From Pseudoselenomonas ruminantium (GTDB lineage: Bacteria > Bacillota > Negativicutes > Selenomonadales > Selenomonadaceae), in assembly GCA_015058625.1 (NCBI GenBank), contig SVCA01000004.1:124001-188000 (forward strand): a DNA stretch of 64,000 nt, written 5' to 3'. The position numbers and the translations under genes are program-made. How positions within the stretch are numbered: position 1 is the first letter of the stretch; each line of letters starts with the position of its first letter. Under the pieces are notes generated by a model. The model was given only the letters and a program-made list of their open reading frames with translations. It searched no databases and was not told where the DNA came from. Positions 47,779 to 50,758 of the stretch are shown in pieces.

Positions 47779-47860
47779 ACATTCATCTCCTTTACATATA
47801 AATTGCAGTTTGCCGGGGAGTTCAGTTCGTAGTAAAGGTATCTTGTTCATACTTAGTTTA

Positions 47861-48055
47861 GGGCCAGACGGGGGAGTAATTTTTCTGTTTTCCGCTAAAC
47901 GACCCCTTCGCAAAGTAGAGCTGTCTAGCTACTCGCGCCGGGCAGGCCAACGGCGCTGCTTTCAGCGTATTTGCTTAGTTGCTTCCTACAGGGGCCGGCC
48001 TTCACTGCGTTCAGGCAGTCGCTCCCTACAGAAAAATCACTCCCCCGTCCGACCC
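47861..48055 (-). ncRNA. candidate structured RNA element, copy A
   Basis: About 195 nt on the minus strand. The outer stem pairs 48049-48029 with 47887-47867 (21 bp, one G-U on this strand). Inside are the hairpin GCCT-loop-AGGC with loop GAACGCAGTGA, a second stem GGCCCC/GGGGTC, a GC-rich hairpin (GCGCCG..CGGCGC) and the unpaired-looking GGGGTCGTTTAG. Copy B (48164-48357 plus) has the same order of parts with compensating base changes in the stems. It lies 83 bases upstream of the engB start, so it may be part of the engB leader. The family was not recognised. Confidence 0.7.
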
Positions 48056-48099
48056 AAGCTACGGCCTATACTATTGCCACGAACTCGTTGCTCCCGTTA

Positions 48100-48119
48100 C
48101 AAGAACATCGATGTTCTTG
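48100..48119. repeat. 20-bp perfect palindrome between the two elements
   Basis: CAAGAACATCGATGTTCTTG is its own reverse complement. It marks the axis of a quasi-palindrome of about 500 bp made by the two divergent elements and their upstream regions. Confidence 0.75.
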
Positions 48120-48123
48120 CTGC

Positions 48124-48152
48124 TTGTCACTACGAAAATGCCGTCTTATACG
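48124..48152 (+). promoter_or_regulatory. promoter of structured RNA copy B
   Basis: TTGTCA (48124-48129) and TATACG (48147-48152) are 17 bases apart. The predicted start near 48159 falls 5 bases before the outer stem. Confidence 0.6.
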
Positions 48153-48163
48153 GACATCGCTTA

Positions 48164-48357
48164 GGGCTGAGGTGGTGATGCTTTTCGCCGTGGAACGACT
48201 GTCCGAACGCAGTGAGGACTGGCCCACAAACAGTAGTTCCTAAAAATTGAGCTGAACATACGCGCCGCCGGTCTTGCCCGGCGCAGGTAACTATAAGCCC
48301 ATAAATTTACTTGTGGGTCATTTAGTGCAACGGCGAAAAGTATTACCACCTCCGCCC
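48164..48357 (+). ncRNA. candidate structured RNA element, copy B
   Basis: About 194 nt on the plus strand. Outer stem: 48169-48190 with 48331-48352 (22 bp, two G-U pairs on this strand, A-C mismatches on the other). Hairpin GTCC-GAACGCAGTGA-GGAC at 48201-48219; second stem CCCACAA (48223-48229) with TTGTGGG (48311-48317); GC hairpin GCGCCG..CGGCGC (48262-48284); GGGTCATTTAG just before the outer stem closes. Stems differ from copy A by matched changes while loops are kept. A terminator at 48411-48447 would give an RNA of about 290 nt. Confidence 0.7.
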
Positions 48358-48410
48358 AAACTGAGCTGTAACAAAAATTTCAGCACGTACTGGCAAACTG
48401 CAACGTACTC

Positions 48411-48447
48411 AAAAGCCCGTTGACTTTTCGTCAGCGGACTTTTTAAG
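48411..48447. terminator. bidirectional terminator of lon and the RNA element
   Basis: AAAAGCCCGTTGAC pairs with GTCAGCGGACTTTTT with two mismatches. T-tracts lie on both strands, so it can end lon (minus) and copy B (plus). Confidence 0.75.
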
Positions 48448-48454
48448 GGAAGCA

Positions 48455-50758
48455 CTATTTTAACAATGCTATTTTCAGCACTTCATCCATGGATTCCACA
48501 GGTCTGAATTCCAGTTTCTCCCGCACGGTTTCGGGGATATCTTCGATATCCTTTTCGTTGTCCTTGGGCAGAACGATGGTCTTCATGCCTTCGCGGTAAG
48601 CGGCGAGCACTTTTTCCTTGAGGCCGCCGATGGGGAGCACATTGCCCCGCAGGGTGATTTCGCCGGTCATGGCTACATCACTTCTGACCTTGCGGCCGGT
48701 TAGGGCTGAAATCATGCCCGTAGCCATGGTAATGCCTGCTGAGGGGCCGTCTTTCGGGATTGCTCCTTCGGGCAGATGGATATGAATATCTTCCTTCTCA
48801 TAGAAGTCATCTGCCAGTTTCAGCTTATCGGAACGGCTGCGTACATAAGTAAGCCCTGCCTGTGCCGATTCCTGCATGACATCGCCAATCTGACCGGTCA
48901 GAATCAGCTTGCCCTTGCCTTTGAGCACGGTGACTTCCGTAGGCAGAATCGTGCCGCCAACTTCCGTCCAGGCCATGCCGGTAACTACGCCGACCTGCGG
49001 TTTCTTATTGGCCTTGGTGTCCTGGAATTTGACCTTGCCCAAGAAGTCCGTAAGATTCTTCTTGGTCACTTTAATCGGTGCTTCTTCGCCCTCGACAATC
49101 TTGCGGGCGGCCTTGCGGCAGACACTGCCAATTTCACGTTCGAGTTCGCGAACACCGGATTCACGGGTGTAATCGCTGATGATTTTCTGCAATACACCTG
49201 CACCAAAGCTGATATCCTTGGCTTTGAGGCCGTTCTGGGTGCGCTGACGGGCTACCAGATAGCGTTTGGCAATCTCTAATTTCTCCACTTCCGTATAACT
49301 CGAAAGCTGAATGATTTCCATTCTGTCCCGCAGCGGACGGGGAATATTGCCAAGGTTATTGGCCGTCACAATCCAGAATACTTTGGAAAGGTCAAAGGGC
49401 AAATCCACAAAGTGGTCGCTAAATGTGGAATTCTGCGCTGGGTCAAGCACCTCTAGGAGTGCCGCTGACGGGTCCCCATGGTAATCGCCCGAAAGCTTAT
49501 CCACTTCATCGAGCAGGAACACAGGATTCTTCTTGCCGACCTTGCGGATGCCTTCAATAATACGGCCGGGCATAGCACCCACATAAGTACGGCGATGGCC
49601 ACGGATTTCGGCTTCGTCGCGGACACCGCCCAGAGATGCGCGCACGAACTCACGCCCCGTAGCTCTGGCGACGGAAGTCGCAAGCGAAGTCTTGCCCACG
49701 CCCGGAGGCCCTACCAAACAAAGAATCGGTGCACTCTTATCCTTGGCCAGCTTATGTACAGCCAGATAGTCCAAGATTCTGTCCTTGACCTTGGTCAAAC
49801 CATAGTGGTCTTCATCGAGAATCTTTTTGGCAGCGGCGATATCCACCGTGTCTTCGGATTCCTCATTCCAAGGCAGTTCCAGCAGGCAATCCACATAATT
49901 GCGGATAACGCCGGTTTCCGCATGCATGTTGCTCAGGGACTCCAAGCGGTTTAATTCTTTTTCCACCGCTTTTTTGACCTCATCGGGATAATTGCCCTCA
50001 TTGAGCTTCTTGCGGGCTTCGTCAATCTCGCCCTTATTGCTGTCGCCGAGCTCCTGACGGATGGCTTTAATCTGCTCACGCAGATAGTAGTCCTTCTGGA
50101 TTTTATCCATCTGCTTGCGCACCTGTTTGCCAATCTTATGCTCCATCTGCAGGATTTCCATTTCCCGCGTCAGCACAGCATAGAGTTTTTCCAGACGTTC
50201 CTTGACGTCAATAGCTGCCAAAAGTTCCTGACGAGTTTCCACCTTGAGGTTCAGATGGCTGGCAATCAGGTCAGCGAGTCTGCCGGCATCATCAATGATG
50301 GCCACAGAAACTAACGTCTCGGGCGGAATCTTCTTGGACAGGCGCACCCATTCTTCAAACTGATGTACTACAGCCCGGTTCAGGGCTTCCATATTCATGG
50401 ATGTATCGATTTTATCGGAAAATTCCTCTACCGTAGCGGTATCGTAATTTTCCTCCGCGTGGAATTCGTGGATAACAGCCCGGTGTTTACCTTCCACCAA
50501 TACCCGTACCGTATCGCCAGGCAGTTTAATAACCTGACGGATTTCCGCCACGGCTCCCACCGGATACAAATCCTTGAAGGCAAACTCTTCCTGCTCCGCA
50601 TCGGTCTGCGCCGTCAGGATAATCTCCCGATTTTCCACCATGGCTTCCTCGATGGCGGCCATGGAACGTGCACGGGCGACATCGAGATGTATCATCATAT
50701 AAGGGAATACGACCATGCCTCTTAAAGGCAACAATGGCAAAGTACGAAGTTCAGCCAT
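48455..50758 (-). CDS. lon: ATP-dependent protease Lon
   Basis: A 767-residue cytoplasmic AAA+ protease. The N-terminal LAN domain begins [15 protein letters not shown]. Walker [10 protein letters not shown] and Walker [10 protein letters not shown] follow. The protease domain has PKDGPSAG with catalytic Ser and [22 protein letters not shown] with catalytic Lys. It is the last gene of the tig-clpP-clpX-lon block. Confidence 0.97.

Follow-up and report, generated by a model that had tools for sequence, protein, structure and literature searches.

Several kinds of bacterial sequence share features with the locus described here. Invertons are invertible DNA segments that lie between inverted repeats. 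The MITE-like repeats of bacteria (Correia/NEMIS, ERIC/RU-1, RUP, RPE and CIR) are reviewed in PMC2229807, which, in the excerpts used here, defines MITEs by terminal inverted repeats, the lack of an encoded protein, a length below 200 bp, a target site duplication, TA ends and richness in A+T. For the Bacillus cereus group, excerpts of PMC3446304 describe the repeats bcr1 to bcr18, of which some are MITE-like (bcr1-3) and some have a conserved secondary structure (bcr10 and bcr18), and about half of the bcr copies are transcribed. Families of repeated sequences with a common stem-loop fold are likewise described in bacterial genomes (PMC2267715); that text mentions neither 'Selenomonas' nor 'Negativicutes'.

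The window analysed here is a stretch of 64,000 nucleotides and part of contig 10 of G000, a Selenomonas ruminantium-group genome with 20 contigs and a total of 2.86 Mb. The first-pass annotation had placed an inverted pair of unrecognised structured RNA elements, A and B, between two genes that it named engB and lon. The pair is real, but it does not stand alone: A and B are the two halves of a unit of about 600 bp that has inverted ends of 12 bp and a palindrome at its centre, and this unit is one copy of a repeat family. Like the MITE-like repeats in the excerpts of PMC2229807, the units are scattered over intergenic places, contain no protein genes, have terminal inverted repeats and would give transcripts predicted to fold. 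Unlike those repeats as described there, the unit is about 600 bp long rather than below 200 bp, shows no consistent target duplication by eye, and combines twin homologous folded RNAs and a palindrome with matched changes across genera and inversion in place. The bcr repeats are also families of interspersed repeats, some MITE-like and some with a conserved fold; compared by their description in the excerpts of PMC3446304, they differ from the present unit, which joins the two sets of traits in a doubled, divergent form and occurs in other bacteria. As in invertons, the unit lies between inverted repeats in either orientation at one site, in this case in different species. Unlike invertons, it belongs to tens of scattered related units, its flipping is known here between species only, and no recombinase is named. 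Scattered folded repeats are already known; the RNA family, the twin layout centred on a palindrome and the inversion in place appear to be new, as no description of them turned up in the open-access literature searched.

The repeat unit and its copies

The unit spans about 47803-48403 of the window, as delimited by the repeat search and by the conservation profile of the aligned units, which drops outside about 47800-48405. The left end, TTGCAGTTTGCC (47803-47814, plus strand), is 100% complementary to the right end (48392-48403, minus strand), which reads GGCAAACTGCAA on the plus strand; among the aligned copies the ends vary in sequence. The longest mechanical ORF wholly within the unit has 90 aa, so that no protein appears to be encoded. 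Element A (47861-48055, minus strand) and element B (48161-48360, plus strand) were each recognised by the repeat search, by a match to the covariance model R1 and by folding against shuffles. Both are present where they had been reported, with the same order of parts: the outer arms of A (47861-47888/48028-48055, 28 nt) are 89% complementary and those of B (48161-48196/48325-48360, 36 nt) are 83% complementary. The R1 matches mark the cores of A (47880-48036, minus; L024:1581-1737) and of B (48181-48340, plus; L024:1882-2041), with a GC content of 51-55%. No Rfam 15 family was found at gathering scores over the window, or at E values up to 5 over 47790-48420, and the elements are indeed unrecognised in this respect. 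A promoter had been placed before B; a sigma-70 consensus scan of 47780-48470 found none, and by eye none is kept in two more distant units.

Between the two elements lies the 20-bp palindrome that had been noted before, which reads CAAGAACATCGATGTTCTTG at 48100-48119 and is a possible protein-binding site. Among the matches listed in the genome, the exact palindrome core ACATCGATGTWC falls within units at all but one place, and this place (C7:354256) is a coding stretch. A palindrome regulon outside the units was rejected on these exact matches; a site with one mismatch (L361) adjoins a bare long hairpin. This GC-rich hairpin (L361:700-1250, contig C4 of G000) stands beside the palindrome core ACATCGATGT; the model does not recognise it, and it may be a decayed unit.

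In G000, 31 loci hold A and B back to back. The gap between the A and B search queries is 93-95 bp in 28 of them, and 224, 227 and 359 bp in the other three; the alignment of 28 units leaves out these enlarged centres and the broken copies. Incomplete copies comprise A alone (L028 and L039), B alone (L057) and pieces at contig edges (L058 and L059). One divergent pair (L060:1128-1591, G000:C19; 82 and 93 bits with the later model R2) represents a clearly distinct subfamily of the RNA. Searched for exactly, the end pattern WTTGCAGTTTGY occurs 26 times in the genome, every time at a unit position (control, 0), and an autonomous parent sharing the ends was rejected by this exact-pattern search. 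By a rough longest-ORF call, the gene contexts of 34 places are mixed (12 tandem, 12 convergent, 8 divergent and 2 unclear), which rules against a cis-regulator of a single neighbour.

Fold, strand and flanking hairpins

On the strand named for each copy, both elements fold far better than 200 shuffles (z = -7.1 for A and -8.9 for B, with 0 of 200 equally good), in agreement with the first-pass annotation. Folding on the opposite strand is weaker (z = -4.2 and -6.3), likewise with 0 of 200 shuffles equally good. Model R1 was built from the A and B copies of G000 after removal of identical ones (48 of 51 kept), leaving out five B copies without an exact motif. Matched stem changes, noticed before between the two copies, are also seen in this larger set: 8 of the 30 modelled pairs are changed on both sides with pairing kept, nearly all of them between A-type and B-type copies.

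The evidence widens in an alignment of 41 matches across species (A3; 40 distinct sequences), where 95.0% of the cells are standard pairs and double-sided changes occur in 23 of the 30 pairs, spread over all five helices. When the partners were slid by 1 to 3 columns, only 39.5-49.1% of the cells were paired and 5-8 pairs had double changes. The covariation score of A3 was reached by 0 of 500 shuffles, and its measure of further pair types by 48 of 500; A3 was fitted to the structure of the model, and kinship among the sequences inflates covariation scores. With no structure supplied, RNAalifold predicted 18 pairs on the wider alignment A2, 15 of them with double changes, and the GC hairpin was absent from this prediction. 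Helices of 2 to 7 pairs that close over long distances also vary in step. Unpaired letters are kept across genera as well, namely GACT after the first short helix and ATTTAG or near variants before the closure. The loop GAACGCAGTGA, which had been called invariant, differs between copies of this genome, some of which have matched changes to GAGCGCAGCGA, and in some distant relatives only GAA or GCA is left. Many copies with random drift in their stems had been named as the sign of a MITE without RNA function; the copies are many, but their stem changes are mostly compensated (the same 23 pairs). The doubly changed pairs, together with 95% paired cells against 40-49% in the slid control, are strong evidence of a selected fold. 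It is thus well supported by the alignments that the fold of A and B is under selection despite the many copies, and that it is kept across genera through matched changes in all five helices.

The strand is a separate matter. G-U pairs had been thought to occur only on the strand named for each copy. In the outer stems of the two copies in the window we count three G-U and one A-C in A, and three and none in B. Over the 30 modelled pairs there are 46 G-U against 10 A-C, of which 26 of the 46 G-U come from one pair in a structure that was chosen allowing G-U. An alignment that does not reward G-U, with 41 outer-stem rows (one of which, from G008, gave only gaps), has 43 G-U against 29 A-C cells (p = 0.12); this is not significant, and G-U pairs were set aside as proof of the strand. 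The named strand is favoured by the predicted folding energies and not by the unbiased G-U test.

The terminator reported after B corresponds to a terminator-like hairpin found by the hairpin scan at 48417-48437 (plus strand), but this hairpin lies outside the unit and belongs to the site. Such hairpins occur within 70 nt of the unit at 16 of 31 loci in G000, against 3 of 31 control positions 600 nt further out, and at 15 of 30 loci in the related genome G011, against 3 of 30; they never flank a unit on both sides. By eye, several of them have the common motif GTC(A/C)(A/G)CGG.

Distribution, inversion and exchange

Model R1 matches 17 of the 22 genus genomes and 22 of 380 class genomes. A second model, R2, whose build left out the sources L092, L096 and L100 and matches above an E value of 1e-5, realised the covariance-model search that had been suggested: it finds the RNA in 27 of the 380 class genomes, in 6 of 102 genera, all within the window's own family; an even draw of 398 genomes over the phylum yielded 6 with the RNA, again in this family only. 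A partial R1 match in a genome of another family (G325) was not recovered with R2 and was treated as chance. In just one of the five genus genomes without an R1 match does R2 add a copy, and the copies per genome range from one to tens. Among the matches listed, the genomes that bear a name belong to strains and metagenome assemblies of Selenomonas ruminantium and to Selenomonas sp. AE3005. One exact-pattern scan found it on 0 viral contigs, and a similarity search found it in no phage record and in one plasmid record; a phage origin was rejected on these grounds.

The twin layout is not the only arrangement of the RNA in the family, where it is also found in tandem (L082, L096, L098 and L226) or in other divergent pairs (L097, L099 and L223). 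At L082:1054-1658 (G031:C5) three copies follow one another (1054-1211, 1281-1432 and 1501-1658), flanked by frames that resemble purN and purH. In G014 the aligned repeat is longer (L217 and L218 are left out of the alignment), and the model barely recognises its second half, scoring 9.9 bits at one locus out of eight. A small tree splits the copies of the S. ruminantium group into a B clade (support 0.896) and an A clade (support 0.946) that also contains the single copy of G035; with the two types in separate clades, the twin arrangement looks old.

The site between the putative engB and lon genes is occupied in G000, G011, G009 and G003. Among 16 relatives in which this site was compared, three have a unit there, one (G016) is matched on one side, and 12 have the ends of both genes but no unit, with 43-153 bp between the matched flanks and the sequence beside the site too diverged to read the junction. 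Between G000 and G011, the latter a single contig, at least 24 sites match on the two flanks and contain A as well as B in each genome; the units have the same orientation at 14 of them and are inverted at 10. This and the following counts are lower bounds covering part of the units of G011 (30 loci), G003 (12) and G017 (19). The flanks at these sites are mostly 90-98% identical (lowest, 76%). Inverted units were also found at two of three sites between G011 and G017, at one of four full sites between G000 and G003, and at one of four between G000 and G017, a genome with its units on a contig of 3.0 Mb; orientation may be wrong at repeats in draft assemblies, so that an assembly error is possible at single sites. 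One site, L042, matched two loci of G011 and is counted once in the 24, and a pair involving the lone A of L028 is outside them. At L053 a full unit in G000 faces a lone inverted A in G011, and L059 and L060 had no match in the BLAST comparison of sites. At most of the ten inverted sites the similarity between the two species continues into the inverted ends before it breaks off; L035, L046 and L048 lack an end, or have only a short one, on one side. The unit is thus found in either orientation between its inverted repeats at shared sites, between species, and the switch lies inside the inverted ends at most inverted sites. Inverted sites hold less similar orthologous copies than sites of the same orientation (one-sided rank tests, p = 0.024 for A and 0.039 for B), by tests that are weak and may not be independent.

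Copies at orthologous sites are slightly more alike than copies at other sites, with a mean identity of 88.4% against 86.4% for A and 90.2% against 88.9% for B. When the closest relative of each of 28 units of G000 was sought among the other copies, A and B pointed to the same one for a single unit only. In four pairs of units, stretches of 178 to 321 identical bases break off within the unit. Judged from such comparisons each copy is a mosaic of others, a pattern that segmental gene conversion should leave, and whole-cassette replacement as the sole form of exchange was rejected, the copies being mosaic by half. Recombination between units may also have left a trace in S. ruminantium HD4, where some 4.7 kb of ordinary genes lie between two directly oriented units with 96.2% identity over 447 bp. 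The deposited 'plasmid' pSR1 (L327, NC_002139.1, the whole record) equals this stretch (L318:1654-6792, NZ_FRBC01000015.1), being 99.5 and 99.8% identical to the chromosome in two pieces and closed through one hybrid unit. Among 69 diagnostic positions of the hybrid unit, including its flanks, the first 31 are those of one unit and the last 38 those of the other, with a single switch. Hence pSR1 looks like a chromosomal excision circle formed by recombination between direct units, or a cloning product of one.

Possible origin and role of the unit

We consider it probable that the unit is a non-autonomous, MITE-like intergenic repeat of about 600 bp, with two back-to-back copies of a new structured RNA as its conserved cargo. 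A and B would be transcribed outward from the centre, and the central palindrome would bind a protein. New insertions would be rare events, brought about by a trans-acting enzyme that works on the inverted ends, and later change would come from homologous recombination between copies and from flipping at the ends. On this best account, the units for the most part stay where they are in the chromosome, and exchange and flipping alter them. The RNA may act in trans or may serve the element through tolerance, upkeep or mobilisation; this is more likely than a switch for one neighbouring gene, because the place of the units, their neighbours and their orientation vary. Counted against this explanation are the exact end, which an exact-pattern search found on no other element in G000, the lack of a consistent target duplication by eye at the aligned unit ends, the sigma-70 scan that gave no promoter, and the unbiased strand test that did not reach significance.

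The selected fold, the old twin layout with A and B types in separate clades, and the sites and halves mostly retained between two species would also suit a family of host small-RNA genes that serve the cell in trans, for instance by binding and titrating a protein, with the copies setting the dose and the repeat serving as vehicle only. The five genus genomes without an R1 match, in which R2 adds a single copy, and a copy number of one to tens with no fixed neighbour make such a family unlikely. Somewhat less likely again is a fold that works as single-stranded or cruciform DNA, on which a recombinase would act to move or flip the unit, and for which no RNA would be needed. Such a role would agree with both strands folding better than shuffles, with the lack of significant strand bias in the outer-stem mismatches and with the flipping and recombination of the units; the better folding of the named strand in A and B, the lean of the modelled pairs to G-U and the kept unpaired letters point the other way and are not decisive.

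The finding of either orientation at the same site (10 of 24, two of three and one of four in the comparisons above), with junctions inside the inverted ends, could also be seen as the mark of an inverton, that is, a phase-variable segment with a dedicated recombinase at its ends that changes the RNA or promoter facing each neighbour. However, the comparison is between species and not within a culture, no recombinase is named, the gene contexts are mixed, and L035, L046 and L048 have no intact end on one side; we regard this as improbable, clearly more so than a fold in DNA. Template switching can correct palindromes, and a plain MITE with incidental hairpins would account for the many copies, the inverted ends and the broken copies, its matched changes arising at palindromes with no selection on the fold. 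This is the least probable of the explanations, since long-distance helices of 2-7 pairs show coordinated changes too and unpaired letters are conserved between genera. It is also conceivable, at the same low probability as the inverton, that the two RNAs are working parts of the DNA rearrangement of the element and guide a recombinase, of the host or encoded elsewhere, in flipping and exchange at its short inverted ends; the unit would then be an RNA-assisted, gene-free mobile and invertible element.

If the preferred reading of a MITE-like repeat with a conserved RNA cargo is true, the genome of the window would hold about 60 copies of an undescribed structured RNA family, with both halves at 31 loci, and a single repeat would be both the bearer of a selected RNA and a site of inversion and recombination in the chromosome. 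With so many copies, each strain would then offer natural replicates for asking why a repeat without genes keeps a folded RNA.
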